DNA of 64,000 nt. It comes from an uncultured Isoptericola sp. (GTDB lineage Bacteria; Actinomycetota; Actinomycetes; Actinomycetales; Cellulomonadaceae). Position 1 is the first letter of the stretch; each line of letters begins with the position of its first letter. Positions 2,509 to 63,506 of this stretch are shown piece after piece. The translations under genes and the position numbers were made by a program. The DNA is taken from NCBI GenBank assembly GCA_947497265.1, contig CANMFP010000002.1:682001-746000 (forward strand), written 5' to 3'. Under the pieces are notes generated by a model that made no database searches, had not been told where the DNA came from, and saw only the letters and a list, made by a program, of their open reading frames with translations.

Positions 2509-3266
2509 GGGCGCTCCACCGGTGGGTAGTGCATCTTCTTCACCTCGTAGTCAGGGTGCTTGCGCAGGTCGAACCGCTGCTCCGGCGGCTGCTCGTCGCG
2601 AAGGTCGGCGAGCAGCACGGTGATCGCGTCCATCACGCGGTTCATCACCTCGCGCAGCGTGGCGGCGTCCTGCGGGCGGTCGTACAGGTCGGACAGGTCC
2701 ACGGGCGGTCCAGCGACGACCTGCACCCGCTTGCGCGGGAACGGCTTGGGCAGCTTGCCGTAGCGCGGCAGGATGTCGACGGCTCCCCACTGCGCGATCG
2801 GCACCACCGGCAGCCGGGTGGTCAGCGCGATGCGCGCGAGACCGGTCTTGGGTTCCATCGGCCAGCAGTCCGGGTCGCGCGTGAGCGTCCCCTCGGGGAA
2901 GACCGCCACGCAGGCGCCGTCGCCGAGCTCCTCACCGGCACGCTGCAACGAACGTGCCGCGGCCGCGCTCCCCCGGTCCACCGGGATCATGTTGGTGGCC
3001 CGCAGCGCGGAACCCACGACGGGAGCCGTGAACAGGCTGCGCTTGGCCAGCACGCGCGGCTCGAAGCCCTGGTCGAACAGGTAGTGCACGAACGTCAGGG
3101 CGTCGAGCTCGGTGACGTGGTTCGCCGCGGCGATGAAGCCGCCCTCGGTCGGGAAGTTCTCGCTGCCGCTCCACTCGTAGCGGCACATCGAGAACATCGT
3201 CGACCGGACGATCTTCGCGATGACGCGATAGAGACGCGACTCGGGTCTGGCGGGGGGCACGGCCAC
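2505..3266 (-). CDS. 1-acyl-sn-glycerol-3-phosphate acyltransferase (PlsC-like)
   Basis: 253 residues from GTG 3266. The acyltransferase motif I (NHVTELDAL, HX4D type) is near residue 50 and motif III (FPEGTLTRD) is near residue 125; these bind the acyl donor and the phosphate of the acceptor. The expected role is acylation of lysophosphatidate at the membrane, right after GpsA makes glycerol 3-phosphate, which fits the 4-bp overlap with gpsA. A Gly/Pro/Arg-rich tail extends past the fold. The acyl chain and acceptor specificity cannot be read from sequence, so a related lysophospholipid acyltransferase is possible. Confidence 0.9.
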   Translation of the reverse strand: MAVPPARPESRLYRVIAKIVRSTMFSMCRYEWSGSENFPTEGGFIAAANHVTELDALTFVHYLFDQGFEPRVLAKRSLFTAPVVGSALRATNMIPVDRGSAAAARSLQRAGEELGDGACVAVFPEGTLTRDPDCWPMEPKTGLARIALTTRLPVVPIAQWGAVDILPRYGKLPKPFPRKRVQVVAGPPVDLSDLYDRPQDAATLREVMNRVMDAITVLLADLRDEQPPEQRFDLRKHPDYEVKKMHYPPVERP

Positions 3267-3338
3267 AGAGCCTACCTGCCCGACGGCGGCACGGTGCCCA
3301 GTGGGCCCGGCCCCGGCGAGCAGATGGACCTCGGCGCG

Positions 3339-4655
3339 TCAGCCGCGGGTGACGTCGGCGCCCAGGGCGACGAGCTTGTCCTGGAAGGACTCATAACCCC
3401 GGTCGATCAACGAGATACCCCGCACCGTCGAGGTGCCCTTGGCCGCCAACGCAGCGATCAGGTGGGAGAACCCGCCGCGCAGGTCCGGCACCTCGATGTC
3501 CGCCGCCGCCAACGGCGTCGGCCCCGAGACCACCGCCGAGTGATGGAAGTTGCGCTGCCCGAACCGGCAGTCGCCCCCACCCAAGCACTCCTTGTACACC
3601 TGGATCGTGGCACCCATCTGCCGCAACGCCTCGGTGAACCCGAAACGGTTCTCATACACCGTCTCGTGCACGATCGACAGCCCCGTGGCCTGCGTCAACG
3701 CCACCACCAACGGCTGCTGCCAGTCCGTCATGAAGCCCGGATGCACATCCGTCTCCAGCACGATCGGGCGCAGATCACCGCCGGGGTGCCAGAACCGGAT
3801 CCCGTCGTCCTGGACGTCGAACTGCCCACCCACCTTGCGGAACGTGTTCAAGAACGTCATCATCTCCGGCTGCGAAGCGCCCTTGATCGTCACGTCCCCA
3901 CCGGTGGCCAAGGCTGCCGAGGCCCAGGACGCCGCCTCGATCCGGTCCCCCAACGCCGTGTGGTTGTACCCCTCGAGACGATCCACACCCTCGATCCGGA
4001 TCACCCGATCGGTGTCCACCGAGATGATCGCGCCCATCTTCTGCAGCACCGCGATCAGATCCATGATCTCCGGCTCCGTGGCCGCACCCGACAGCTCCGT
4101 GATCCCCTCAGCACGCACCGCCGTCAGCAACAGCTGCTCCGTCGCCCCCACCGACGGGTACGGCAACGTGATCTTCGTGCCCTGCAACCGCCGCGGCGCC
4201 CGCAGATGGATCCCGTTCGGACGCTTGTCCACCACCGCACCGAACTGCCGCAAGATGTCCAGGTGGTAGTCGATCGGCCGATCCCCGATCCGGCAACCAC
4301 CCAGATCCGGGATGAACGCCTCACCCAACCGGTGCAACAACGGACCACAGAACAAGATCGGGATCCGGCTCGCCCCCGCATGCGCATCGATGTCCGCCAC
4401 GTGCGCCGACTCCACGTTCGACGGATCCAGGTCCAAGATCCCCGCGTCCGGGTCGTACTTCACGTTCACCCCGTGCAGGTCCAACAACCCCGAGACCACA
4501 CCCACGTCCCGGATCTGCGGCACGTTGCGCAACACGCTCGCGGACTCACCCAGCAACGACGCCACCATCGCCTTGGACACGAAGTTCTTCGCACCCCGCA
4601 CCGAGATGGTGCCCTGCAACGGCGTCCCACCGTTCACGTACAGCAGATCAGTCAT
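3339..4655 (-). CDS. murA: UDP-N-acetylglucosamine 1-carboxyvinyltransferase
   Basis: 438 residues. It transfers enolpyruvate from PEP to UDP-GlcNAc, the first committed step of peptidoglycan synthesis. The RGAKN motif near residue 20 holds the conserved Lys-Asn pair, and the PEP-reactive cysteine is Cys121 in LGGCRIGDRPID, so the fosfomycin-target cysteine is present and not replaced by Asp as in mycobacteria. Codon use differs from both neighbours: a stretch around residues 97-125 uses TTG, GGT and GAT repeatedly, where flanking genes use CTG/CTC, GGC and GAC. The 72-bp gap to the acyltransferase suggests an operon. Confidence 0.96.
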   Translation of the reverse strand: MTDLLYVNGGTPLQGTISVRGAKNFVSKAMVASLLGESASVLRNVPQIRDVGVVSGLLDLHGVNVKYDPDAGILDLDPSNVESAHVADIDAHAGASRIPILFCGPLLHRLGEAFIPDLGGCRIGDRPIDYHLDILRQFGAVVDKRPNGIHLRAPRRLQGTKITLPYPSVGATEQLLLTAVRAEGITELSGAATEPEIMDLIAVLQKMGAIISVDTDRVIRIEGVDRLEGYNHTALGDRIEAASWASAALATGGDVTIKGASQPEMMTFLNTFRKVGGQFDVQDDGIRFWHPGGDLRPIVLETDVHPGFMTDWQQPLVVALTQATGLSIVHETVYENRFGFTEALRQMGATIQVYKECLGGGDCRFGQRNFHHSAVVSGPTPLAAADIEVPDLRGGFSHLIAALAAKGTSTVRGISLIDRGYESFQDKLVALGADVTRG

Positions 4656-4867: not shown

Positions 4868-5818
4868 TCACGGGATCGTGACGTATCGGGCGACCAGCTC
4901 GGCGCCGAGGCGGGCGAGCTCCGCACGCACCTCGGGCGGATCCTCCACCACGGCTCCGTCGCCCCAGCCGGCGAGGTGCCTCGCGACGTCGAGCGGCGTC
5001 GGTGCGCCGACGCGCACCCGGACCACGCCGTCGTCCGCCGCGCCCTCGACGCTCACGTGCCGGCCGAACTGGGCTCGCAAGACCCCGACGTGCCGCTCCG
5101 GGACGCGGACCGTGGCCCAGGTCGTCGAGCGCAACGTCTCGACCTCGTCGACCACCTGCGCCCACACGGCGCCGAGGTCCAGGTCCGCCGGCACCTCGGC
5201 AGCGTCATCGGTGACCTCCGCCGCGACGACGCGGTCGACCCGGTAGGTGCGCGGTCCGCGATCCGTCCCGGCCACGAGGTACCAGGTGCCGTCCTTGTCC
5301 ACCGCGCCCCACGGGTCGACGACACGGTCCGACGACCGCCCGGTGGCGCCGGTGTACCGCAGCCGGACGCGCCGCCGTCGGACGACGGCGTCCTGCAGCG
5401 CCTCGAGGTGCGGCGCCTGTTCCCGGGCGGCAGCGCCCCATCGCTCGCGGTCGACGACGGTGGCGACGGCCGCCGCCTCGGCCTCGGCCCGGAACGGCGT
5501 GGGCAGCGCCCGGACGAGCTTGCGCAACGCCGCGCTCGCGTCGTCGTCCGCGGCGATGGCCGGTCCCGCACGGAGGAACAGCGCGCGGGCCTCCGGCGCG
5601 GTGAGACCGCTGAGGTCGGTCCGGGCGCCGCCGAGCAGCGACCATCCGCCGCCCCGGCCGCGCTGCGGGTACACGGGGACCCCGGCGGCCGACAGCGCCT
5701 CCAGGTCGCGGCGTGCGGTGGCCACCGAGACCTCCAGGGCGTCGGCGAGCTCGCCGGCGGTCACCCGCGGCCGGGACTGCAGGTGCAGGAGCACCTGGAT
5801 GAGGCGATCGGCTCGCAC
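4868..5818 (-). CDS. WYL-domain transcriptional regulator (HTH_11 + WYL)
   Basis: 316 residues from GTG 5818. Residues 1-60 are a DeoR-like winged helix (RLIQVLLHLQSRPRVTAGELADALEVSVATARRDLEAL is one continuous domain; the recognition helix is SVATARRDL). Residues 145-225 form a WYL domain with RLRYTGATG, DPWGAV and WYLVAGTDRGPRTYRVDRV. A helical extension follows. WYL proteins sense small ligands, often nucleic acids or nucleotides, and regulate adjacent genes. It is divergent from a VOC-fold gene 102 bp away, which is its most likely target. The ligand is unknown. Confidence 0.88.
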   Translation of the reverse strand: MRADRLIQVLLHLQSRPRVTAGELADALEVSVATARRDLEALSAAGVPVYPQRGRGGGWSLLGGARTDLSGLTAPEARALFLRAGPAIAADDDASAALRKLVRALPTPFRAEAEAAAVATVVDRERWGAAAREQAPHLEALQDAVVRRRRVRLRYTGATGRSSDRVVDPWGAVDKDGTWYLVAGTDRGPRTYRVDRVVAAEVTDDAAEVPADLDLGAVWAQVVDEVETLRSTTWATVRVPERHVGVLRAQFGRHVSVEGAADDGVVRVRVGAPTPLDVARHLAGWGDGAVVEDPPEVRAELARLGAELVARYVTIP

Positions 5819-5920
5819 ATCTCGAGACTGCCACAGAAAGTAGTCAGAAGGTGAGCACTTTGCCGCGCAGGATGGATCTCGACGGTGTCACCGAGGCGCC
5901 GCACCACCGGGAGGATGACC

Positions 5921-6331
5921 ATGCTGCGCGGACTCACCACCATCACGTACTTCGCCGACGACGTCGCCGCGGCCCGCGACTGGTACGCCGAGGTCCTCGG
6001 CGCCGAGGCCTACTTCGCCCGCGAGGTCGAGGGCACCCTGGCGTACGCCGAGTTCCGCATCGGCGACTACCAGCACGAGCTCGGGATCATCGACCGACGG
6101 TTCGCGTCGGTCGCCCGTACCGAAGAGCCGACCGGCGCGGTCGCCTACTGGGCGGTGGACGACGTCGCGGCGACGTACGAGCGGCTGCTCGCCCTGGGCG
6201 CCGTCGGCCACGACGAGCCGACCGAGCGCGGCCCGGGGTTCGTCACCGCGACCGTCGTCGACCCTTTCGGCAACCTGCTCGGGGTGATGGAGAACGCCCA
6301 TTACGACGAGGTGCTCGACTCGCTGCGGTGA
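5921..6331 (+). CDS. VOC-fold (glyoxalase/bleomycin-resistance type) protein
   Basis: 136 residues if translation starts at ATG 5921, which has GAGG six nucleotides upstream; ATG 5915 overlaps that site and is less likely. Two beta-alpha-beta-beta-beta repeats are recognisable: VAAARDWYAEVLGAEAYF in the first and GAVGHDEPTERGPGFVTATVVDPFGNLLGVMEN in the second. VOC proteins are small metal-binding lyases, dioxygenases or drug-binding proteins, and the substrate is not apparent. The divergent WYL regulator probably controls it. The gene converges on the DUF1877 gene with 13 bp between stops. Confidence 0.85.
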   Translation: MLRGLTTITYFADDVAAARDWYAEVLGAEAYFAREVEGTLAYAEFRIGDYQHELGIIDRRFASVARTEEPTGAVAYWAVDDVAATYERLLALGAVGHDEPTERGPGFVTATVVDPFGNLLGVMENAHYDEVLDSLR

Positions 6332-6344
6332 CGACGGGTTGGTG

Positions 6345-6845
6345 TCAGTTCAGCATCAGCACGACGCCGTCACCCGCGGCGGCTGCCGCGGAGCAGAAGC
6401 GCCGCAGCTCGTCGTACCGCTCGCCGAGCACCTGGGGTCGTTCCTCGGCCAGGTGCTCGGCGGGGTCGGGGCACCCGTCGCCGTCGCAGAGGCGCGTGAC
6501 GTCATACCCGTCGGCCAGCGCCGCGAAGGGCGTCGCGCTGAGGAACGCGGCGGCGTGACGTACCTCGTCGGGAGTGAGCGAGCGCACCGGGCCCAGCCCG
6601 CCGTCGATCCCCAGCGGCGTGCCGCCGTGGACGACGTCGACCGCCGGCTCCCGCGCACGGAGCAGGGCGTCCAGCGGGCCCCACGCCCGGCCGACGCTGA
6701 AGTAGCGCGCCTCCTCGGGCTCCAGGTCGAGCTCGACCCACTCCTCGGCGAGCGCGTCGAGACGTTCCGCGGCCCACGCCGCGTCCGACTGCGCCCTGTC
6801 CATGTCCGCGGCCGCGAGCCGCGCGTACTCGCAGTGAATGCCCAT
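6345..6845 (-). CDS. DUF1877 (YfbM-like) family protein
   Basis: 166 residues from the ATG at 6845 (MGIHCEYARL), the standard N terminus of this family; longer upstream starts add an Arg/Pro-rich non-conserved segment. Internal motifs fit DUF1877: WVELDLEPEEARYFSVGRAW, near a domain that packs as an alpha-beta fold, and GTPLGIDGGLGPVRSLTPDEV. The function of the family is unknown; it is a small cytosolic protein with no signal or membrane segment. It stands alone, with a long inverted repeat upstream. Confidence 0.82.
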   Translation of the reverse strand: MGIHCEYARLAAADMDRAQSDAAWAAERLDALAEEWVELDLEPEEARYFSVGRAWGPLDALLRAREPAVDVVHGGTPLGIDGGLGPVRSLTPDEVRHAAAFLSATPFAALADGYDVTRLCDGDGCPDPAEHLAEERPQVLGERYDELRRFCSAAAAAGDGVVLMLN

Positions 6846-6909
6846 GGCCCGCGACCGTAGCGGTACGGCGGGCACCGCAGGGCGGGCAAAACGGCCGGAC
6901 CGGTGCTGA

Positions 6910-6958
6910 CCGCGCAAAACGTCACGCAAGACTGTGAGATGCGACAAGTTTTGCGCGG
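6910..6958. repeat. 11-bp perfect inverted repeat with A-rich arms
   Basis: CCGCGCAAAAC (6910-6920) is repeated in inverse at 6948-6958 with 27 nt between. It lies between the end of the MarP-like gene and the start of the DUF1877 gene, both on the minus strand. It could be a terminator stem or a regulator site near the DUF1877 promoter. The AAAA/TTTT core is unusual in this GC-rich sequence. Confidence 0.5.
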
Positions 6959-7008
6959 CGATCCGGGCACAACTCGGGTGTAGTCATCAGGGGTGTGCTG
7001 GCGATACG

Positions 7009-8181
7009 TCAGCGGGCACAGCTTCCGGGCGTGACCGCGGCGTCCAGGTCGGGGGCCTGCGCGACCACGGGCATCAGCTCGGTGGTGGTCACGCCGTACG
7101 CGAGGGCGTCACCTCCGCTGGACCGCCCGAAGATCACGCCGACGACGTCACCGTCGGTGGACAGCACCGGACCACCGGAGCTGCCGGGATGCACGCTGGC
7201 GGCGAGCGCATAGATGTCGCGCTCGCCACCTCCCGTGCCACCGGACCCGGGGATCCGCACCGGGCCGACGTCGAGCACCTCGGCGCCCGTCGAGGTGAAC
7301 GGACCGCCGTGCGGATACCCCTGGACGGCGGCCGGGTCGCCGGTCTCGAGCGTCGGCGCGACGCTCAGGGGGTCGGCGTCCAACCCGTCGACGGCGACGA
7401 CGGCGAGGTCCGCCCCGGGGTCGTAGTACACGACCCGCCCCTCCTGCGCCGGTCGTCCCGGGAGCTCGACCAGCGGCCGGTCCACGCCCGCCACCACGTG
7501 CGCGTTCGTCACCACGCGGTCCGGGGAGCTGACGAAACCCGACCCGGTGATCCCGGTCCCGCAGGCGTACGCCGTGCCCCAGATCCGCGCGACCGACTGG
7601 GCAGACGCCTCGAGCGCCGGGTCGTCCAGGTCGACCGTGGGTGCCGTCGTCGTCCGGCGCGGATCCAGCAGGCCGTCCAGACGCGGCAGGCCGTCGTCCA
7701 GCACCGCGCCGCGGACCTCGGCCAGGGACCGACTGACCGGCGTCGGCGTGAGGTCCTCGATGCTGCGCAGCACCGCGGACGACGAGACGGCGGACGCGAC
7801 GCCCGGCGTGCCGGTCGCCTTCACGGCTGTTCCGACGAACGACAGTGCGAGAGCCGCCACCACCAGGCTGGCGACGCCGCCGAGGAGCCGGTCGAGCGGC
7901 CGCAGCCCCGAGCGGTCCACCTGCTGGCGCAGGCTGTGTCCTACGCCGGCACCCATCGACGCCCCGAGCAGCGGCAGCGCGACGGCCAGGAGCACCGTCG
8001 CCGGACCGCGCCACTGCGGTTCCGGCAGCGCGTCGACCACCAGCGGGACGACGAGGAAGGCGGCCACTCCCCCGACGACGAGACCGACGAGCCCGCCGAG
8101 CGTGGCGAGCAGCCCGCGGCTCAGCCCCGCCATCAGGGCGAACAGCAGGACGACGACGAGCACCAGGTCGAGCAGGGTCAC
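7009..8181 (-). CDS. marP: MarP-type membrane serine protease (CvpA-like TM domain + trypsin-like domain)
   Basis: 390 residues from GTG 8181 behind GGAGG. Residues 1-120 form about four transmembrane helices (MTLLDLVLVVVLLFALMAGL begins the first). The periplasmic part carries a trypsin-like triad: His228 in TNAHVV, Asp258 in PGADLAVV and Ser335 in HPGSSGGPV. Cys207 and Cys388 lie where mycobacterial MarP forms its regulatory disulfide. MarP protects cell envelope integrity in acid and oxidative stress by cleaving periplasmic targets. Length and residue spacing match MarP closely; the orthology is inferred, not searched. Confidence 0.9.
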   Translation of the reverse strand: MTLLDLVLVVVLLFALMAGLSRGLLATLGGLVGLVVGGVAAFLVVPLVVDALPEPQWRGPATVLLAVALPLLGASMGAGVGHSLRQQVDRSGLRPLDRLLGGVASLVVAALALSFVGTAVKATGTPGVASAVSSSAVLRSIEDLTPTPVSRSLAEVRGAVLDDGLPRLDGLLDPRRTTTAPTVDLDDPALEASAQSVARIWGTAYACGTGITGSGFVSSPDRVVTNAHVVAGVDRPLVELPGRPAQEGRVVYYDPGADLAVVAVDGLDADPLSVAPTLETGDPAAVQGYPHGGPFTSTGAEVLDVGPVRIPGSGGTGGGERDIYALAASVHPGSSGGPVLSTDGDVVGVIFGRSSGGDALAYGVTTTELMPVVAQAPDLDAAVTPGSCAR

Positions 8182-8331
8182 GGGGCCTCCGCGGGCGGGC
8201 TGGGACGTCGGGGACCGCTGAGAATACGCGGTCGACCTGGATGTCCGCTGAGGTCCTGGTCCGCGCCTCGAGAGGCCCGGCGTACACTCCCGGGAGGAGC
8301 TGACCCTGGTTCCCCGATCATGGGAGTCCGG

Positions 8332-9522
8332 ATGCCCGGCGCCACACCCCCGTCCCCTGCCGTCCCTGCCGACACGCTGCTCAGCCTCGGGCTGCTCGCC
8401 GGTTCGTCGATGGAGAACGAGCGGCGGCTGCCGATCCATCCACACCACCTGGACCGGATCGACGAGGACGTCCGCGCGCGCATGATCGTCGAGCGCGGCT
8501 ACGCGGCCGACTTCCGGCTGGAGCGCGGCTACGTCGAGTCCCGGGTGGGCCGAGTCGCGGAACGCTCCGAGGTGATCGAGTCCGCCGACGTGCTGCTCCT
8601 GCCCAAGCCGCAGGCGGCGGACGTCGCCGCGATCCCTGAGGGCCGCGTGCTGTGGGGGTGGCCGCACTGCGTGCAGGACGCCGGGATGACGCAGACGGCG
8701 ATCGACCGCCGGCTCACCCTGATCGCCTTCGAGGCGATGAACCACTGGACGTCCCGGGGTGACTTCGGCTTGCACGTGTTCCACAAGAACAACGAGCTCG
8801 CCGGCTACTGCTCCGTCCTGCACGCCCTGAGCCTGACCGGCTCGACCGGCGACTACGGCCCGCGGCTCAGCGCTGTCGTCATCGGGTTCGGTGCGACGGC
8901 ACGAGGCGCCGTCACCGCGCTCAAAGCGCACGGGATCCACGACATCCAGGTGCTCACGCAGCGAGGCGCCGCAGCGGTCGGGTCCCCGATCCACAGCGCG
9001 CACATCACCCAGCTCCACACCAGCGAGGGGGCCGCCTACCTCAGCGAGGTGACGACGCAGGACGGCGAGGTCCCGCTCCCGGAGTTCCTCGCCTCGCACG
9101 ACATCGTCGTCAACTGCACGCTCCAGGACGTCGCCGCACCGCTGACCTACCTGCGCACAGAGGACCTGGCGGGCTTCGCCACGGGAAGCCTGATCGTCGA
9201 CGTCTCGTGCGACCAGGGCATGGGGTTCGAGTGGGCCGTGCCCACCACGTTCGACGACCCGATGCTCACCGTCGGCGACGGCGTGAGCTACTACGCCGTC
9301 GACCACACCCCGTCCTACCTGTGGAACTCCGCGACCTGGGAGATCAGCGAGGCGATCCTGCCCTTCCTGCGCACGGTCCTGGAAGGACCGGCCTCGTGGG
9401 CGGCGAGCCTCACCGTCTCGCGGGCGATCGAGATCCACGACGGGACGATCAAGAACCCGAGCATCCTGAGCTTCCAGGGTCGGGACGCCGCCTACCCGCA
9501 CGCCCTGACCACCCCGGCCTGA
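8332..9522 (+). CDS. Alanine dehydrogenase/PNT-fold enzyme, N5-(carboxyethyl)ornithine synthase-like
   Basis: 396 residues from ATG 8332, with GGGAG five nucleotides upstream. The N-terminal half has the AlaDH/PNT substrate domain (SSMENERRLPIHP, VLLLPKP, EAMNHW). The NAD(P)-binding Rossmann loop is VVIGFGATARGAV, about 185 residues in. It lacks the canonical alanine dehydrogenase active-site blocks and looks closer to the opine-forming N5-(carboxyethyl)ornithine synthases, which condense pyruvate with an amino acid reductively. Substrate is an inference. It is monocistronic and converges on the response regulator gene. Confidence 0.72.
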   Translation: MPGATPPSPAVPADTLLSLGLLAGSSMENERRLPIHPHHLDRIDEDVRARMIVERGYAADFRLERGYVESRVGRVAERSEVIESADVLLLPKPQAADVAAIPEGRVLWGWPHCVQDAGMTQTAIDRRLTLIAFEAMNHWTSRGDFGLHVFHKNNELAGYCSVLHALSLTGSTGDYGPRLSAVVIGFGATARGAVTALKAHGIHDIQVLTQRGAAAVGSPIHSAHITQLHTSEGAAYLSEVTTQDGEVPLPEFLASHDIVVNCTLQDVAAPLTYLRTEDLAGFATGSLIVDVSCDQGMGFEWAVPTTFDDPMLTVGDGVSYYAVDHTPSYLWNSATWEISEAILPFLRTVLEGPASWAASLTVSRAIEIHDGTIKNPSILSFQGRDAAYPHALTTPA

Positions 9523-9548
9523 CGGGCTCCGCGCGTCGGGGCCGGGGA

Positions 9549-10250
9549 TCAGCCCGTCGGCGAGACCAGGCCCACCCGGTAGGCGAGCACCACCGCCTGC
9601 ACCCTGTCGCGCAGGCCGAGCTTGGCGAGGATCCGTGAGACATAGGTCTTGACCGTCTCCGGAGTGATGACCAGCTCGCCGGCGATCTCCGCGTTCGACA
9701 GCCCGGCGGCGAGCTGCTCGAGCACCTCCAGCTCCCGGGCGGTCAGACGGGCCACGACGTCGTCCCGCTCGGGCCGCGCCGTGTCCGCCGGGCGCAACCG
9801 CTCGGCGTACCGGCCGATCAGCGTGCGCGTCACGGTGGGCGCGAGCAGCGAGTCGCCGCGGGCGATCGTCCGGAGGCCGTCGATCAGCTCGGCCGGGGAG
9901 GAGTCCTTGAGCAGGAACCCGCTGGCCCCCGCTCGGAGCGCCTCGTAGACGTACTCGTCGACGTTGAACGTGGTGACCACCAGCACCTTGGCCGGCGTCT
10001 CGGCGTCCGGCCCCGCGATCCGGCGCGTCGCCTCGATGCCGTCCAGCACGGGCATCCGGATGTCCATCACGACGACGTCAGGGCGCAGCCGCAGCGCCGC
10101 CTCGACGGCCGCACGGCCGTCTCGCGCCTCGCCCACGACCTCCATGTCGGGCTGTGCGGAGAAGATGGTCACGTAGCCGACCCGGACCAGCTCCTGGTCC
10201 TCGCAGACGAGCACGCGGATCGGGTTGCCTTCCGCCGGTGCGACGGTCAT
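9549..10250 (-). CDS. NarL/LuxR-family response regulator
   Basis: 233 residues from ATG 10250 with an AGGAGGAG ribosome site. The receiver domain (residues 11-125) has the acidic pair CEDQ, the phospho-acceptor Asp63 in VVVMDIRMP and the conserved Lys in LLKDSSP. A LuxR-type HTH (LTARELEVLEQLAAGLSNAEIAG) sits at about 165-225. Its start overlaps the kinase stop by 4 bp (ATGA), so the two are a coupled two-component pair. The controlled genes may include the adjacent CPBP protease or be elsewhere. Confidence 0.95.
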   Translation of the reverse strand: MTVAPAEGNPIRVLVCEDQELVRVGYVTIFSAQPDMEVVGEARDGRAAVEAALRLRPDVVVMDIRMPVLDGIEATRRIAGPDAETPAKVLVVTTFNVDEYVYEALRAGASGFLLKDSSPAELIDGLRTIARGDSLLAPTVTRTLIGRYAERLRPADTARPERDDVVARLTARELEVLEQLAAGLSNAEIAGELVITPETVKTYVSRILAKLGLRDRVQAVVLAYRVGLVSPTG

Positions 10251-55224: not shown

Positions 55225-57048
55225 TCAGTCCTCTCGTTCCCAGGCGGGCGAGATGCCCCGCGCGTACTGGATGTCGTCGTTGCTCACCCCGGCGGCGACC
55301 ATGGGCCAGACCATCGCGTCGCGCGAGACGTTGAAGTCGACGACGACGGGCCGGTCGTCGATCTCGTTCGCCTTCTTGATCGCGTCGTCGACCTCCGACT
55401 CGTGCTCCACCCGGATGCCGACGCAGCCGTACGCCTCGGCCAGCTTGACGAAGTCGGGGATGCGCAGCGTGCCGTGGCCCGTGTGCAGGTCCGTGTTGGA
55501 GTACCGCTCGTTGTAGAACAGGGTCTGCCACTGGCGGACCATGCCGAGCGAGCTGTTGTTGATCAGCGCCACCTTGATGGGGATGTCGTTGATGGCACAG
55601 GTGGCCAGCTCCTGGTTGGTCATCTGGAAGCAGCCGTCACCGTCGATCGCCCAGACGTCGCGGTCGGGCTCGCCGACCTTCGCGCCCATCGCCGCGGGGA
55701 CGGAGTAGCCCATGGTGCCCAGACCACCGGAGTTGATCCACGTGTTCGGGCGCTCGTACCTGATGAACTGCGCGGCCCACATCTGGTGCTGCCCCACGCC
55801 TGCGACGTAGATCGCGTCGGGTCCGACGATGTCACCGAGCCGCGAGATCACGTGCTGCGGCGCGAGGTGTCCGTCCGCCGTCGCCGAGAAGCCCAGCGGG
55901 TACGTCTCGCGCCACGTGTCGATCTGGTGCCACCACGCCTCGACGTCCGGCTTGCCGACCCGTTCCTGCTCGGCCTGCAGGGCGGGCACCAGGTCCTCGA
56001 TCACCTCGCGCAGGTCGCCGACGATCGGCACGTCCACCGCGCGGTTCTTGCCGATCTCCGCCGGGTCGATGTCCGCGTGGACGACGGCGGCGTGCGGCGC
56101 GAAGCTGGACAGCTTGCCGGTGACGCGGTCGTCGAACCGCGCACCGAGGGCCACCACGAGGTCGGCCTTCTGCAGGGCCGCCACGGCGGGCACCGTGCCG
56201 TGCATGCCGGGCATGCCCAGGTGCTGCGGATGCGAGTCCGGCACCGAGCCGCGTGCCATCAGCGTGGTCACGACCGCGGCACCGGAGGTGTCGACGAGGC
56301 GCCGCAGCGCTGCCGAGGCACCGGACCGGATGACGCCGCCGCCCACGTACAGCACGGGGCGTCGGGCGGTGGCGAGCAGCTTGGCGGCCTCACGGATCTG
56401 CTTGGCGTGCGGCTTGGTGACCGGGTGGTAGCCGGGCAGCGCCAGCTCCTGCGGCCACGAGAACGTGGTGCGCTCCTGCATCGCGGACTTGGCGATGTCG
56501 ACCAGCACCGGCCCGGGGCGCCCGGTCGAGGCGATGTGGAACGCCTCGGCGATGGTGCGCGGGATCTCGTCCGGGTCGGTGACCAGGTAGGAGTGCTTGG
56601 TGACCGGCATCGTGATCCCGACGATGTCCGCCTCCTGGAAGGCGTCGGTGCCGATCGCCGGTGCGGCGACCTGCCCGGTGATGGCCACCATCGGGATGGA
56701 GTCCATGTTGGCGTCGGCCAGCGGCGTGACGAGGTTCGTCGCCCCCGGACCCGAGGTCGCCATCGTCACGCCGACCTTGCCGGTGGCGTGCGCGTAGCCG
56801 GAGGCCGCGTGGCCGCCGCCCTGCTCGTGGCGCACGAGGATGTGGCGCAGCCGGTCGGAGTCCATCAGCGGGTCGTAGGTGGGCAGGATCGCACCGCCGG
56901 GGATGCCGAAGACGTTCTCGACCCCGACGGCCTCGAGCGACCGGACGATCGACTGCGCGCCCGTGACCTGCTCGCCTACCGCGCGGTCGACGCCGCGCGG
57001 CGCGGTGCGTGCAGCCACCTGGGCTGGTGTCGGGTTCGGCTGGCCCAT
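55225..57048 (-). CDS. ilvB: Acetolactate synthase large (catalytic) subunit
   Basis: 607 residues from ATG 57048, with AGGAGAG upstream. It makes acetolactate or acetohydroxybutyrate using ThDP, FAD and magnesium. The catalytic Glu is in [20 protein letters not shown] and the ThDP motif is [19 protein letters not shown]. Catalytic core conserved. ilvN and ilvC follow. It is preceded by a leader with attenuation features. Confidence 0.97.
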
Positions 57049-57245: not shown

Positions 57246-57842
57246 TCACGCCGTGGTCCGACCGTCCCGCATCGTGGACACCGTGGTGTCCGGATCGTCG
57301 TCGAACGCCGGCAGACCGTCGATGCTCGTGCGGTTCTTGCGGCGGCGGTACTCCGCCTGCCCGTCGGGCCCCTTGCGGTCCATGTAGCCGGGCAGCAGGT
57401 CCCGCTCCCCCGCGTGGTCGTACAGCGGGACGCCGTACCCGCAGGAGTCGGAGACCCGGTCCACGTCGACCACGATGACGGCACGCGCCCCGCGCCGCTC
57501 CGAGAAGTGCTCGACGAGCTCGTCGAACCCGGCGTCGTACAGGCTCACCACCCGGCCGCGGCCGTGCAGGCGCACGACGTTCGGCGGCCCGGCGAAGGCG
57601 CAGAACATCAGCGTGACGCGCCCGTTCTCGCGCAGGTGCGCGATGGTCTCGGCGCCCGACGCAGTGATGTCCAGGTAGGCGACGGTGTGGTCGTCGAGCA
57701 CCACGAAGGACCCGTCGACGCCCTTGGGAGACACGTTGACGCGACCCTCGCCGGACAACGGCGCCGTGCCGACGAAGAAGACGTGCTGCGCCTCGACGAA
57801 CGATCGGAGCCGGTCGTCGATGCGCTCGTGAACCTTTCCCAT
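57246..57842 (-). CDS. Pyridoxamine 5'-phosphate oxidase-fold protein
   Basis: 198 residues from ATG 57842; GTG 57851 is an alternative. The split-barrel flavin fold is visible: AQHVFFVGTAPLSGEGRVNVSPKG, VAYLDITASGAETIAHLREN and VTLMFCAFAGPPNVVRLHGRG. Such proteins reduce or bind FMN/F420 with small substrates. It is 18 bp after the frameshifted dehydrogenase gene and ends 23 bp before the ilvB leader, so it may be the last gene of the Ole-like operon. Confidence 0.88.
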   Translation of the reverse strand: MGKVHERIDDRLRSFVEAQHVFFVGTAPLSGEGRVNVSPKGVDGSFVVLDDHTVAYLDITASGAETIAHLRENGRVTLMFCAFAGPPNVVRLHGRGRVVSLYDAGFDELVEHFSERRGARAVIVVDVDRVSDSCGYGVPLYDHAGERDLLPGYMDRKGPDGQAEYRRRKNRTSIDGLPAFDDDPDTTVSTMRDGRTTA

Positions 57843-57860
57843 GGGGCACACCCTGCCAGA

Positions 57861-58776
57861 TCACCAGTGCTCGGCACCGGCGAACGACGTGGGAGCGGGG
57901 ATGACGCCCAGCACCTCCCGCAGCACCCTCAGGTGGTAGGTCCGCTCCGTGGCGAGATGGCTCAGTGCGTACCGCGTCAGCCGCGGCGCGGGTCGGTACG
58001 GCGACCACGCGGACCCGCACCCCACGGCGCCGGAGCACGTCGACGACGGCGTCGCGCAGCACGACCGGTTCGGCGTCGGCCACGTTGACCACCAGCGGTA
58101 CCGCGCCGCCGTCGGTGGCCGGGCAGGCCGCCGCGAGGGCCCCGTCCTCGATCGTGGCAGCAGACCGCACCGCCGCGAGCAGGGTCTCGACGTGGGTCAA
58201 CGACTGGCGCACCCGCCCACCGCCGGGCAGGACCAGGAACCCGCCGCGCACGGCCGCCTCGATCCGCGGCAGGAGCGTGCCGTCACCAGGGCCGTAGACG
58301 GCGTGCGGTCGCAGGATCACGACGCCGCCCCGGACGTCGCGGCGCACGTCGTCGAACAGGTACTGCTCGGCCTCGGCCTTCGTGCGACCGTACGGCTCGA
58401 GGTAGTGGTCGACCGGCGCCTCGGACTCCTCGGCCCGCACGCTGGGCGCGAAGGGGTCGTAGACGCTCCCGGAGGAGACGTGGACGAACCGGGCGTCGCC
58501 GAACGTCTCGCGCACCGCGCGGGTGCCGGCGACGTTGACGGCGCGCGCCACGCCGAGGTCGGACCAGTCCGAGACCACCGCACCGGCATGCACGACCACG
58601 TCGACGGCGGGGGCGTCCCCCAGCGGCCCGTCGGTGAGGTCCCACCGGCGATGCCGGGCACCGTGGATCCCGTCCGGCCGGCGAGAGTAGGTCCACACCT
58701 CGTGGCCGCGCGCGACGGCGTCCCGGGCGACCGCGCCCCCGACGAACCCGGACGCCCCGGTCACGGCGATCCTCAC
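57861..58776 (-). pseudogene. OleD-like NAD(P)-dependent 3-beta-HSD/epimerase, apparent frameshift
   Basis: From GTG 58776 the fold starts MRIAVTGASGFVGGAVARDA (Rossmann GxxGFxG) and has the catalytic YxxxK in EPYGRTKAEAE. Around plus positions 57981-57999 the reading frame changes by one nucleotide: the original frame runs on into unrelated sequence, while the +1 frame gives a coherent C terminus LTRYALSHLATERTYHLRV ending GAEHW at a stop (57861). The gene spans 916 nt, which is 3n+1. A sequencing error or a true frameshift mutation are both possible. It is the fifth gene of the Ole-like operon; 4-bp overlap with the ligase. Confidence 0.75.
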
Positions 58777-60446
58777 GGGACCTCCGCGGCCGGCCGGCCG
58801 GCCGGTCGGCGGGCCGCCGCGCGCACGAGCGCCTGCCGGTCGGGCTTGCGGCTGCGGCCGGCCGTCGGGACGTGCGTGGCGTGCAGCACGACGTCGGGCA
58901 GCGCGTCGTGGTCGACCACGCCCGGCAGGGCGGCGCGCACCCGCGCGACGAGCGGGTGGCCGGGGTCGAGAGCCAGCTGCGTCGCGGCGTCGGCGGATGA
59001 CTGCGCCGACGTGACGACGAGCACGACCACCTCGTCCCCGTCGGTGCGGGGCACGCCGACGAGCACCGCCTCGCCGACCCCGTCGAGGGCCGCGATCCGC
59101 GGCTCGTACAGCCCGGGGTAGATGTTCGTCGTGCCACGGATGATCATGTCGCGCGTGCGTCCCACGAGCACGACCCGCCCGTCGGGCTCGAACCGGGCGA
59201 GATCACCGGTGCGGTGCTCGGTCGCCCGCACCGCGGCCCCCGCACCGTCGAGGTCGTGCAGGTAGCCGGTCATGAGCGAGGGTCCGCCGAGCACCAGCTC
59301 ACCGACGCCGTCGTCCTGCGTGCCCTCGACGGGTTCCAGCCGCGCGGCCACGCGGGGCAGCGGGCGACCCACCAGGTCCCCGTCACCCTCGAACGCGAGC
59401 TTGTCGCCCGCCTCGACGACGGCGACCGGCAAGATCTCGGTCATCCCGTAGACACCGACCCACCGCGTGCCGGGCAGCACCCTGGCCGCCCGGTCGAGCA
59501 GTGCGCGCGTGACCGGCGCTCCCCCGACGAGCGCGACTCGCGGCCCGCGAGCGGGCAGCCGGCCGGCCTCGACGGCGTCGAGCAGGGCGGTGACGTCCGC
59601 GGGCACGAGGTAGGTCCCCGCGGCGTCGGCCAGGCACCGCCCGAAGGTCACCACGTCCCGACCCGGCGGGTCCGCGGGGATCGACCAGGTCGCGCCGGCG
59701 AGCAGCGCGGGCATGCCCAGGAGCATCTGGTCGGTGTGCACGACGTCCCCCGGGGCGAGGTCGAACACCTCCCGCAGCAGGTCGCACCCGGCCAGCAGCG
59801 ACCCTGCGCTGTGCACCACGGCACGCGGCTGCGCCGTCGTGCCCGAGGTGAACACGACCAGGGCGTCGCGCCGCGGGTCGAGGCTCGGCAGCGCGCCGCC
59901 GTCCTGGACACCGCGGGCCAGGGACCCGGCCGAGCGCGAGCGGTGAGGGACCCCCGGCAGCCACAGCCCGGCGTGCACGTGCCGCACGGGCAGCGTGGCG
60001 TAGTCCGGCAGCAGGATGCCCCGGGCGCGGGCGAGCCGGCGCAGCGGACCCCGCGAGACGGCGTAGAGCAGCGACTCGGTGATCGCGAGCGTCGGCCGGG
60101 CGGCGGCCACGCGCGCGGCGAACAGCTCCGGCGTCGATCCCGGGTCGACGAACACGACCGTCCCCCCGGCACGGACGACGCCCAGGGCCAGCACGACGCC
60201 CTCGGGACGAGGACGGACCGAGAACAGCGCGCGGTCGCCCGCCTCGAGCCCGTCAGCACCGAGCGCCGTCGCCGTCGCGGTGATCCGCTGCGCGAGCTCG
60301 CCGTAGGTGACCTCCTCCCGCACCCGTGGCCCGCGCCGCCCGCCCCGGGTCCACCGCCGCAACGCGACGTCGTCCGCGCCGAGGTGCCCGGGAGCGCCAC
60401 GGTCGAGGACCGGGCCCAGCAGGTGGGCGTCGGTCGATCCGGTCAT
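58773..60446 (-). CDS. OleC-like AMP-forming acyl ligase
   Basis: 557 residues from ATG 60446. ANL adenylation motifs: FTSGTTAQPRAVV (core 3, with Ala and Arg replacing the usual Gly and Lys), YGMTEILPVAVV (core 5, OleC-like), RTGDLARFEPDG (core 7) and AGRSRKPDR with the catalytic lysine (core 10). OleC enzymes activate a beta-hydroxy acid and form a beta-lactone. Its position between the P450 and the dehydrogenase fits that. Ligation to CoA or a carrier cannot be excluded. Confidence 0.85.
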   Translation of the reverse strand: MTGSTDAHLLGPVLDRGAPGHLGADDVALRRWTRGGRRGPRVREEVTYGELAQRITATATALGADGLEAGDRALFSVRPRPEGVVLALGVVRAGGTVVFVDPGSTPELFAARVAAARPTLAITESLLYAVSRGPLRRLARARGILLPDYATLPVRHVHAGLWLPGVPHRSRSAGSLARGVQDGGALPSLDPRRDALVVFTSGTTAQPRAVVHSAGSLLAGCDLLREVFDLAPGDVVHTDQMLLGMPALLAGATWSIPADPPGRDVVTFGRCLADAAGTYLVPADVTALLDAVEAGRLPARGPRVALVGGAPVTRALLDRAARVLPGTRWVGVYGMTEILPVAVVEAGDKLAFEGDGDLVGRPLPRVAARLEPVEGTQDDGVGELVLGGPSLMTGYLHDLDGAGAAVRATEHRTGDLARFEPDGRVVLVGRTRDMIIRGTTNIYPGLYEPRIAALDGVGEAVLVGVPRTDGDEVVVLVVTSAQSSADAATQLALDPGHPLVARVRAALPGVVDHDALPDVVLHATHVPTAGRSRKPDRQALVRAAARRPAGRPAAEVP

Positions 60447-61627
60447 GCTGCCTCCACCGTCAACGAGCGGTACGCGGGGATGAGGACGCCGCGGGCGACC
60501 GCCCGGTCCACGACGGTGACGGTGCGTCGCGCCTCGGCGACGGGCCGCAGGGCGTCGAGCACCGCGTCGACCTGGGCCAGGGCCAGGGGCATCCCGAGGC
60601 AGAAGTGCGGCCCCGCGCCGAACCACAGGTGCCGGACAGCGGCGTCGGCCGGGACACCCGGGTCGAACGGTCCGGCGTCGCGACAGCACGAGATCGTCGC
60701 GATGACGACGCGGTCGCCGGGCCGCACGCGCACCCGGCCCACGGTCGCCTCCGCGCGCACCGATCGCAGCATCGCGGGCGTGGGTGCCGTGATGCGCAGC
60801 GCCTCCTCGACCACGCGACCACGCAGGGTCGCGCCCTCCGAGGTCGCCGGGTCGGCGGCCAGCAGCCGGTCGAGCCAGCCGGTGTCCGCCGCGAGCGCCA
60901 CCAGGCGCGGGACGAAGGACTGGACCGTCTCGGTGCCGGTGAGCACGAAGGCCCCCACGGCGCCGAGGGCCTCGGCCTCCGAGAGGCCCAGCTCGCGCAT
61001 CCGCCCCGGGACGGTGGCAGGGTCGCCGGCCCGGTAGGCGTCGCGCGCCGGTTCCGACAGCCGTGCGAGCACGGCACGGGCGTGGCGCACCTGCGCGGGC
61101 GTCAGGCTGTGCCGGTGCAGGCGCACCATGCCCACGACGGACTGGGCGGCCGACATCGCCTCGCGCACCGCGGTGTCCGTGGGCGGCAGCCCGGTCATCG
61201 CACAGATCACCGTGCCGGCGATGGCTGCGGTCTCGTCGACGAGGTCGACCCGCGTGCCCGCCAGCAGCCGCTCCGGCAACGCCGCCAGGGCGGCCGGCAC
61301 GCTCACCGCGACGAGCTCGCGCACGGCGCGCGGGGTGAACAGCCCCGCGAGGGTCCGGCGTAGGCGGGCGTGGTCGGCACCCTCCATGTTGAGCAGCACC
61401 GAGGGTCCCAGCACAGGGGTCCACAGGTCGGACGGCGCACCCGGGCCGACCTTGGAGAACCGGTCCGTGTCGAGCAGCACCTCGCGCGCCGTCGCGGCGT
61501 CGGAGACGACGACCCCGATCCCGGGCACCCGGACGACCGGTCCGAGCCGCCGCAGCCCACGGATCGCCGGGTAGGCCAGCGGATGAGCCGCCCGCTGGAC
61601 CCGGTCCTCCCAGCGCACGGCCGTCAT
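60443..61627 (-). CDS. Cytochrome P450
   Basis: 394 residues from ATG 61627. The heme-thiolate loop is WFGAGPHFCLGMPLAL with Cys343; the I-helix oxygen-binding part is VLTGTETVQS and the ExxR pair is Glu275-Arg278 in EEALR. No ferredoxin gene is adjacent. It is expected to hydroxylate or epoxidise the lipid intermediate of this operon. Overlaps the neighbours by 4 bp. Confidence 0.94.
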   Translation of the reverse strand: MTAVRWEDRVQRAAHPLAYPAIRGLRRLGPVVRVPGIGVVVSDAATAREVLLDTDRFSKVGPGAPSDLWTPVLGPSVLLNMEGADHARLRRTLAGLFTPRAVRELVAVSVPAALAALPERLLAGTRVDLVDETAAIAGTVICAMTGLPPTDTAVREAMSAAQSVVGMVRLHRHSLTPAQVRHARAVLARLSEPARDAYRAGDPATVPGRMRELGLSEAEALGAVGAFVLTGTETVQSFVPRLVALAADTGWLDRLLAADPATSEGATLRGRVVEEALRITAPTPAMLRSVRAEATVGRVRVRPGDRVVIATISCCRDAGPFDPGVPADAAVRHLWFGAGPHFCLGMPLALAQVDAVLDALRPVAEARRTVTVVDRAVARGVLIPAYRSLTVEAA

Positions 61628-62415
61628 CGGATGTCCACCACCTCGGGCCGGTACCGGTGGTCGGCGTACCAGCCGAGCGTGCGAACCAGGCCCCAGGCGT
61701 GCGCGCGGCGCGTCGAGGCGCGCACGACGACCTCGCGGTGCGCGCCGTAGCGCGTCGTGAGGCGGCGGACGGCGTTGACGAGGGCACGGTCCTCGTGGAC
61801 GTCCTCGATCGCCGTCCGCGGGAAGCCTCCGGCTGCCTCGTACAGGGCGGCGGTGATCGCCATGTTGCAGCCAGGAGCCATCACGTACGGGCCTTGGTAC
61901 GCCGGGTCCTGGTTGCCCGGCCGGAACCGACCGAACGTGCTCGCGACGACGACCGCCGTCGCCAGGACGCCCTGCTGGACGCGCGAGACGGGGAGGTCGT
62001 CGGTGCGCGGCACCAGGCGTCCGGCGACGAGGTCGTGCCCGACGGCGAACGCCTCCCGGACGCGGCGGGTCCAGTCCGGCGGGGGCAGGCAGTCCGCGTC
62101 GGTGCGCGCGAGATGCGTCGCTCCGGCGGCGATCGCGGCACGCATCCCCGTGTCCGCGGCCGCGCCGGTGCCCTTCTGGAGCTCGTCGACCACGCGCCAG
62201 CGCGTCATCCCCCAGTCCTTCGCCGTGGCGCGCACGAGCTCGCCGGTCCCGTCGGACGAGTCGTTGTCCACCACCACGAGGTCGAAGTCCGCGTCCTCCT
62301 GGTCGCGCAGGGCGGCCAGGGTCGCACCGATGCCGTGCACCTCGTCGCGAGCCGGGACGATCACGGCCAGCCGCTGCAGGCCCGGGGGCACCAGGGTGTG
62401 CCGGTCGCCGCTCAC
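61624..62415 (-). CDS. Family 2 glycosyltransferase
   Basis: 263 residues from GTG 62415. The GT-A fold begins LAVIVPARDEVHGIGATLAAL, then VVVDNDSSDGTGELV, and the metal-binding DxD-like ARTDADCLPPPDW. The C-terminal DVHEDRALVNAVRRL supplies the catalytic acidic block. No transmembrane helix, so it is cytosolic or peripheral. It probably glycosylates the operon product. 4-bp overlap with both neighbours. Confidence 0.88.
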   Translation of the reverse strand: MSGDRHTLVPPGLQRLAVIVPARDEVHGIGATLAALRDQEDADFDLVVVDNDSSDGTGELVRATAKDWGMTRWRVVDELQKGTGAAADTGMRAAIAAGATHLARTDADCLPPPDWTRRVREAFAVGHDLVAGRLVPRTDDLPVSRVQQGVLATAVVVASTFGRFRPGNQDPAYQGPYVMAPGCNMAITAALYEAAGGFPRTAIEDVHEDRALVNAVRRLTTRYGAHREVVVRASTRRAHAWGLVRTLGWYADHRYRPEVVDIR

Positions 62416-63506
62416 AGCCGCACGACCGTCGCGCCGATGCTGATGCCCCCGGCGAGCCCCACCAGGACCACCAGGTCCCCGGGCCCGACCCGGCCCGCGT
62501 CGAGGGCGGTGCGGACCTGCAGCGGCAAGGAGGCGGACGCCACGTTGCCGTGCTCGGCGACCGTGACGACGGTGCGCCCCGGGGGCAGCCCGAGCGCGAC
62601 CCGGACGTCCTCGAGGTAGGCGACCGCCACCTGGTGGACCGCGACGAGGGCGACGTCGTCCCAGGTGACCCCGGCCTGCGCCAGCGCCCGCAGGACGACG
62701 TCCGGCCCGAGCGCGAGGAACGCCTCGCGCAGGCGCGATCCGTCGATCTCGAAATAGGTCCGCTCCGGGTCCCGCGGGTGGGCCGTGCCGCCGCCCGGGA
62801 GCATGCCGACGTCCCAGCGCGTCGAGTCCGCGCCGAAGGCGCTCGCGAGGATCCCGCGCGGTGCCGGCCGGCCCTGCTCGTCCCGTGCGCCCGCCTCCTC
62901 GGGGGTGGCCCTGCGCACGAGGACCGCTGCTCCGGCGTCGGACATCGTGTAGCCGGGCGCGGAGAGCAGGTAGGTGGCCCGGTCCGGCACGTCGTGACGG
63001 ACGCCCCGCGTGGGCGCCTCGCCGCAGGCGACGAGCACCGTGTCGTACCGCCCGGCCCCGATGAGCGCCTCGGCGACCTCGATCCCGTTCAGCACCGAGT
63101 TGCACGCGTTCTTGACGTCCATCACCGGCGCACGGATGCCCAGCTTCGCCGCGACGATGTGGCTCGTCGCCGGTTCGATCATGTCCTGGGTCGCCGAGGC
63201 GAACAGCAGCAGGTCGATCTCCTCGGCCGCGACGCCCTCCGCGGCGAGCAGCTTCTCGGCGGCGGCGACGGCGAGGTCGGACGCGTCCCAGGAGTCGGGC
63301 AGGACGTGCACCTGGCGCACCCCGGTCAGCCGGGACACCATCGGCACCCGCGGGACGGCACCGGGGTTGCGGCGGGCGAGCTCGAGCTCGGCGGCACGGA
63401 CGTCGACGGTGCGTTCGGGCAGGTGGACGCCGATGCCGGCGATCACCGCCGTCGTGGACGTCGGTGGGGGTGCGGTCCGGTGGGACGGCTGGACGTTGAC
63501 GGGCAC
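62412..63506 (-). CDS. OleA-like beta-ketoacyl-ACP synthase III family (Claisen condensation)
   Basis: 364 residues from GTG 63506. The catalytic triad is Cys135 (KNACNSV), His291 (VAVHQVA) and Asn321 (EHGNVAS). Glu111 in QDMIEPATSHIV sits 24 residues before the cysteine, as OleA's Glu117 does relative to Cys143, a feature of head-to-head condensing enzymes rather than FabH. It is first of the operon and would join two acyl chains into a 2-alkyl-3-oxo acid. FabH-type chain initiation is the alternative. Confidence 0.87.
   Translation of the reverse strand: MPVNVQPSHRTAPPPTSTTAVIAGIGVHLPERTVDVRAAELELARRNPGAVPRVPMVSRLTGVRQVHVLPDSWDASDLAVAAAEKLLAAEGVAAEEIDLLLFASATQDMIEPATSHIVAAKLGIRAPVMDVKNACNSVLNGIEVAEALIGAGRYDTVLVACGEAPTRGVRHDVPDRATYLLSAPGYTMSDAGAAVLVRRATPEEAGARDEQGRPAPRGILASAFGADSTRWDVGMLPGGGTAHPRDPERTYFEIDGSRLREAFLALGPDVVLRALAQAGVTWDDVALVAVHQVAVAYLEDVRVALGLPPGRTVVTVAEHGNVASASLPLQVRTALDAGRVGPGDLVVLVGLAGGISIGATVVRL

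Follow-up and report, generated by a model that had tools for sequence, protein, structure and literature searches.

A conserved five-gene operon with an OleA-like ketoacyl synthase in an uncultured Isoptericola: a candidate route to an oxidised, glycosylated lipid

The window analysed here is a stretch of 64,000 nucleotides from an uncultured Isoptericola sp. (G000:C2:682001-746000; host genome 3.77 Mb in 41 contigs), and our subject is an operon in it, all genes of which lie on the minus strand. In the order of transcription, the operon comprises an OleA-like β-ketoacyl-acyl carrier protein synthase III (KAS III)/thiolase (62412..63506; 364 amino acids from GTG 63506, with a start possibly at 63446), a GT-A glycosyltransferase of family 2 (GT2; 61624..62415), a cytochrome P450 (P450a; 60443..61627), an AMP-forming ligase (58773..60446), and an OleD-like short-chain dehydrogenase/reductase (SDR; 57861..58776), which is frameshifted, its N-terminal and catalytic part being in frame. 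The frames of the KAS III, GT2, P450, and ligase are open, and their Pfam families match the names given in an initial annotation made from the sequence alone. Each of the four junctions overlaps by 4 bp, including that between the ligase and the SDR start at 58776; the coordinates and the alignment described below thus bear out the five overlapping genes and the Glu111 of the KAS III that had been reported. The nearest named relative at the locus is Isoptericola halotolerans KCTC 19046, the KAS of which is 90% identical.

We scanned the contigs of relatives for the KAS and kept the best 80 loci of 209 relatives, to which the locus counts below refer. The order KAS-GT2-P450-ligase-OleD, on one strand, is kept in 68 of the 80 loci. 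Beyond the KAS, 76 of the loci extend for 6 kb or more, and all 68 belong to these; four of the 12 exceptions extend for less than 6 kb. Because it recurs so often, the five-gene order, which the initial annotation had singled out for comparison, does not reflect chance. The gene set is found in many actinobacterial genera and its chromosomal settings differ: in Promicromonosporaceae and Cellulomonadaceae it lies near ilvD and a presumed ilvB, and in Arthrobacter it sits between adk and an M24 peptidase gene. At E ≤ 1e-60, the KAS profile matches 33 of 394 sampled genomes of the class, a count that includes related KAS in other contexts, and 48 of 221 genomes of the family (49 of 221 have a P450 match at E ≤ 1e-20); within the genus, the five-gene KAS is present in two of 18 searched genomes. 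A variant order, KAS-GT2-ligase-P450-OleD, was seen in four sampled genomes of the class (L185, L187, L188, and L199); in L187 and L199, the P450 is labelled as such from BLAST alone, as Pfam gave no P450 domain. In L188, the ligase and the P450 are separated by a gene (2391-3911; G731) whose product carries a BrkB-like domain as well as a second GT2 domain. At a further locus (L195:7631-9589; G791), a single open frame of 652 amino acids holds both GT2 and P450 domains, and at L184 (3856-13999; G777) a KAS of the wider clade has as neighbours an OleC-clade ligase, an OleD-like gene, an alpha/beta hydrolase, and a type I polyketide synthase (PKS), a possible OleABCD-PKS hybrid cluster.

Glu111 of the KAS III (motif MIEPATS; E91 in the 344-residue numbering) aligns with the Glu-Pro of OleA, in the place of Glu117 of Xanthomonas campestris OleA. 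This glutamate is present in 22/22 aligned KAS rows, that of the window included, and the Glu-Pro is found neither in the two aligned FabH-like proteins of the genome nor in 1zow. The catalytic cysteine (DVKNACN), histidine (HQV), and asparagine (GN) are likewise invariant in all 22 rows. The published OleA signature EPxx[AS]x(14,18)DxxNACL, as given in PMC7158056, is matched except for its last letter (NACN versus NACL). Phylogenetic trees place the KAS III with OleA and apart from FabH (support 99/97 in one tree and 100/99 in another), on long branches, which upholds the OleA-like rather than FabH assignment of the initial annotation. In the tree with 100/99 support, the five-gene rows do not form one side of a branch, and other KAS rows are interspersed among them. 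We note that the score of the KAS III on the OleA model NF006720 (128.1 bits) is below the cut-off of 285, whereas the canonical OleA encoded elsewhere in the same genome scores 433.2 bits. We rejected a FabH identity on the strength of the aligned glutamate and the trees, although raw scores lean toward FabH, and we read the KAS III as a member of a distant OleA-type clade with a predicted non-decarboxylative Claisen condensation activity.

The GT2 motif TDAD is invariant in 13/13 aligned rows, and in a wider set of predicted GT2 proteins it is missed in three rows (L087, L089, and L091); an AlphaFold model of the GT2 (predicted local distance difference test score 88.7) matches GT-A enzymes of the PDB. 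In P450a, the heme-ligating cysteine C343 and the ExxR motif (E275 and R278) are invariant in 9/9 aligned rows; sequence and fold searches of the PDB gave generic P450 enzymes only. A role for P450a as a heme-less activator of the glycosyltransferase was ruled out, as C343 is kept. Further, a second P450 clade, which we call P450b (support 100 by the Shimodaira-Hasegawa-like approximate likelihood ratio test in a quick tree), is linked to the gene set in 42 of the 80 loci. In Promicromonosporaceae, Cellulomonadaceae, and one Terrabacter, it lies upstream in divergent orientation; in Saccharopolyspora and Microbacteriaceae, it lies downstream. It was not found in flanks of up to 8 kb at Arthrobacter, Lentzea, and Pseudonocardia loci. 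As P450b is present in 38 of the 48 fetched stretches of the family, we regard it as an accessory partner. None of the four P450 matches in the genome of the window is an orthologue of P450b, and none was found in the sister genome G140 either. In the P450 tree, L195_g3 is a P450b, L084_b2 is unrelated to P450b, and two Terrabacter proteins are P450a.

The ligase had been named OleC-like, an assignment that our comparisons do not support. Its best NCBIfam scores are 141.2 bits on PRK06187, a generic long-chain acyl-CoA ligase model, and 141.0 bits on the OleC-related PRK09274, compared with 99.8 bits on the OleC model NF045786. The OleBC of the same genome scores 329.7, 120.9, and 277.9 bits on PRK09274, the generic model, and the OleC model, respectively, and PRK09274 is the best model for canonical OleC rows. 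Because even this OleBC reaches only 277.9 bits, the NF045786 cut-off of 900 does not discriminate. The ligases of three of the five scanned five-gene relatives (L071, L088, and L112) also score best on the generic model. In a 38-row tree, the five-gene and variant-order ligases (the latter from L185, L187, L188, and L199) form one clade (100/99) and OleC another (100/100). The two clades differ at two motifs. All 17 five-gene ligases (15 with D, two with N) and all four variant-order ligases carry a hinge-region (A8-type) motif, GRxx[DN]MxxRxxxNxYP, that 0/11 OleC-clade rows have, whereas HN[AS]K near the C terminus, a pattern derived in this analysis and not taken from a paper, is present in 9/11 OleC-clade rows and in 0/21 five-gene and variant-order ligases. 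Among the predicted full-length ligases of the fetched loci, 63/64 carry the A8 pattern (L046 misses it) and 0/64 carry HN[AS]K. The best solved matches of the ligase profile (E ≤ 1e-30) are thioester-forming enzymes, namely gramicidin synthase adenylation domains, FadD5, and fatty-acyl-, feruloyl-, and malonyl-CoA synthetases. The ligase therefore stands outside the OleC clade and departs from it at two motifs, and this leaves lactone formation unsupported, though not excluded; from these profiles, trees, and motifs, we infer that it would more likely serve thioester formation or transfer than OleC-type β-lactone formation.

In one sublineage, a different adenylating enzyme takes the place of the ligase. 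Three Herbiconiux loci (L107, L109, and L114) have OleD-KAS-P450 without a close GT2 or ligase; two of the three show weak GT2 matches (33-36%, E 1e-4 to 1e-6) at a distance of 6 to 8 kb. Upstream of these genes is an adenylating enzyme related to F390 synthetase, which scores 336.1 and 348.5 bits on TIGR02304 (cut-off 251.9) in the two of the three that were scanned, the third being 55% identical. A Psychromicrobium locus (L110) has KAS-P450-OleD with a 46%-identical homologue of the Herbiconiux enzyme and, again, no GT2 close by. This indicates that the adenylating step persists although the type of enzyme changes.

A separate, canonical ole operon is encoded on another contig of the genome (G000:C3; L140 5024-9902, minus strand), with oleD at 5024-6115, an oleBC fusion at 6112-8886, and oleA at 8880-9902. 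Its OleA is above the model cut-off, and the N terminus of its OleBC matches haloalkane-dehalogenase models. Each of the 18 genomes searched within the genus, among them that of the window, has canonical OleA, as do 13 of the 48 KAS carriers of the family. When nine carriers were searched for OleB, no match (E ≤ 1e-10) was obtained in 7/7 without canonical OleA and a match was obtained in both with it. We take the five-gene set to be independent of OleB, because none of the seven carriers that lack canonical OleA gave an OleB match. OleB is thus missing from the operon, as the initial annotation stated, but not from the genome, and the suggestion that the P450 and the glycosyltransferase replace it is not borne out, given that both systems coexist here and that the seven carriers have no OleB match. 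Of the findings that the initial annotation had named as counting against its reading, two are thus partly seen: an OleBC fusion elsewhere in the genome, and a ligase that groups apart from OleC and lacks the OleC motif.

The oleD gene of the operon is damaged. The SDR frame stays open from 58776 to 57169 (535 codons), but the C terminus that is conserved in eight relatives sits in another frame, with its stop at 57861, 18 bp before the ATG of the following gene at 57842, and DNA alignment with two intact relatives revealed a 62-bp net deletion near 57989. OleD is the best NCBIfam family of the SDR (NF042422; 81.9 bits, cut-off 580, a threshold that the canonical OleD of the genome also fails to reach with 277.3 bits), and YGRTK (YxxxK) is present. 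The initial annotation of an OleD-like dehydrogenase was therefore right about the family but overlooked the frameshift and the deletion. The lesion is unlike a single-base error. Further defects occur in relatives: in the sister genome G140 (L036 and L148), the only other KAS carrier in the genus, the GT2 frame is broken and oleD is absent, and oleD is missing from two Cellulosimicrobium genomes (G110 and G126; L043 and L044). We also observed a broken operon in Promicromonospora kroppenstedtii (G186; L066/L248), with the P450 in pieces, no ligase, and an OleD fragment.

We surveyed oleD in the 48 family rows, of which 44 were counted (G005, G112, G151, and G186 were left out). Canonical OleA is present in 3/3 of the genomes without oleD compared with 8/41 of the others (Fisher p 0.012). 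When the oleD of the window is also counted as broken, as the frame comparison and the DNA alignment indicate, the figures are 4/4 oleD-defective genomes compared with 7/40 others (calculated by hand, p about 0.002). The olefin operon genes oleA, oleBC, and oleD, the last of nearly full length, were found in G110, G126, and G140, as they were in the controls with intact oleD (G111 and G114), and all four oleD-defective genomes, including that of the window, hold the full oleA-oleBC-oleD set. The ratio of nonsynonymous to synonymous substitution rates (dN/dS) of the window oleD is 0.31 compared with L037 and 0.40 compared with L039, whereas that between L037 and L039 is 0.17. Sharing of OleD with the olefin operon explains this pattern, and simple decay explains it too. 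We conclude that the copy of the operon in this strain is probably impaired.

The gene that follows the SDR encodes a PNPOx-fold protein (57246..57851, minus strand; assigned by Pfam). The distance of 18 bp given for it in the initial annotation is correct when measured from the stop of the conserved SDR C terminus at 57861, but the gene stands outside the conserved set: a homologue occurs in only two of the 80 loci (L036 and L054), of which L036 alone has it immediately downstream of the ligase, and we ruled out PNPOx as a sixth operon gene on this count. Beyond it lies a member of neighbour cluster c8, judged by eye to be ilvB (55225..57018, minus strand); the cluster also follows the operon in several relatives and is given here for context only. 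A large biosynthetic cluster was likewise ruled out, the scanned neighbours being mostly housekeeping or transport genes.

The initial annotation knew of no described pathway with this set of genes. However, a cluster of Actinoplanes atraurantiacus with OleA, a glycosyltransferase, OleC, a P450, and OleD was published in 2020 (PMC7064751), together with the prediction of a hydroxylated, glycosylated β-lactone, which relied on protein domains and treated the ligase as OleC. According to the same source, the A. atraurantiacus OleA acted on p-nitrophenyl hexanoate; an OleA given as “A. actinoplanes”, presumably the same, was purified but precipitated. Compared by its published description, the Actinoplanes cluster resembles the operon in its five protein kinds, in having no oleB in the cluster, and in being actinobacterial; it differs in that OleC is listed before the P450, whereas here the P450 precedes the ligase, and in that the source reports no oleB in that genome, whereas the genome of the window has oleBC. 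According to the same paper, the lipstatin and nocardiolactone β-lactone pathways also have oleACD-like genes without oleB (PMC7064751). With the canonical oleA-oleBC-oleD operon, as described in PMC7158056, the operon would share OleA-type condensation and OleD-type reduction, and it differs in a KAS with only 23-29% identity and NACN, a ligase of another clade, no OleB, and an additional P450 and GT2. The gene set is thus already described in print, and what is new here is the P450b clade, the swapped adenylating enzyme, and the occurrence of oleD lesions only beside a full olefin operon.

Read from gene content, order, conservation, motifs, clades, and lesions, the operon may encode an OleA-type pathway to an oxidised, glycosylated, α-branched lipid that is partly decayed in this strain, a tentative reading to which we give a little less than an even chance and in which every chemical step and the product are predictions. 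The KAS III would join two acyl-CoAs head to head to give an α-alkyl-β-keto acid, which the OleD-like SDR would reduce to the α-alkyl-β-hydroxy acid; P450a, together with the second P450 in many relatives, would hydroxylate a chain, and the GT2 would add a sugar. The ligase would convert a carboxylate to its acyl-AMP, probably on the way to a thioester or a transfer rather than to an OleC-type β-lactone. The pathway would thereby end in an α-branched fatty acid that is oxidised and glycosylated, or in an ester of this acid. In this strain, the pathway would run only if the truncated OleD works or if the OleD of the olefin operon substitutes for it. An oxidised, glycosylated lipid, the general expectation of the initial annotation, fits the gene set.

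Several observations weigh against this proposal. The raw NCBIfam scores of the KAS III are higher on PRK09352 (159.7 bits) and fabH (130.6 bits) than on the OleA model, its list of PDB matches is led by FabH chains (108 bits versus 83 bits for OleA), and its identity to canonical OleA is no greater than that to the FabH-like proteins of its own genome (25-29%). Sequence and fold searches of the PDB with the GT2 gave generic GT-A enzymes and identified neither donor nor acceptor. For the ligase, two of the five-gene relatives, out of five that were scanned, score higher on PRK09274 than on the generic model (L037, 162 versus 153 bits; L104, 147 versus 131 bits), the tree gives only weak support (82/78) to its position relative to OleC and the other ligases, with long-branched outgroups from its own genome, and, because 6/6 other AMP-binding proteins of the genome also lack the strict A8-type pattern, a thioester-forming role is something we only infer from that motif. 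The oleD lesion could be an assembly fault, the cases of oleD loss come from two genera and are therefore of limited independence, and the other genes of the window operon have dN/dS of 0.04-0.20 compared with the L036 sister, which shows purifying selection. Last, no product of the gene set was found in the open-licence literature searched.

Alternatively, the operon could make the hydroxylated, glycosylated β-lactone predicted in PMC7064751 and by the initial annotation, with the ligase acting as OleC. The gene set itself, the lack of OleB both in the operon and in the carriers without canonical OleA, and the presence of PRK09274 among the best models of the ligase (and as the best of all for L037 and L104) speak for it, but the ligase lies outside the OleC clade, lacks the OleC motif, and scores higher on the generic model than on the OleC model, and in one sublineage an adenylating enzyme of another type stands in its place, so that we consider a β-lactone rather unlikely, albeit deserving of attention. 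It is improbable, in our estimate, that the ligase is a FadD that feeds acyl-CoA to the KAS III, with a glycosylated, hydroxylated ketone or hydroxy acid as the end product: PRK06187 scores as high as the OleC-related model and the profile matches CoA ligases, but the genome has at least six other AMP-binding proteins, and the genes for KAS, ligase, and OleD stay linked, as they do in ole operons. Compatible with any of these readings, and plausible without reaching an even chance, is the view that the operon in this strain is a non-functional relic under decay. The oleD frameshift, the rarity of the KAS in the genus, the broken GT2 and missing oleD of the other carrier, the absence of P450b from both carriers, and the raised dN/dS of oleD all point in this direction, but four genes remain open and under low dN/dS, and a canonical OleD is present in the genome.

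Our preferred reading of an oxidised, glycosylated, α-branched lipid can be extended to the gene set as a whole. These operons may define an actinobacterial class of glycolipids built on mycolate-like α-alkyl-β-hydroxy acids. One or two P450s would oxidise these acids, the GT2 would attach a sugar, and a thioester-type ligase would activate them, at no point passing through a β-lactone; where the olefin pathway coexists, its OleD would be shared, making the operon's own oleD losable. We regard this extension as speculative and, taken as a whole, unlikely. If the published prediction that the ligase acts as OleC is wrong, these clusters would make an unknown glycolipid instead. The pattern of oleD loss, for its part, would offer an example, open to testing, of one enzyme that serves two lipid pathways.

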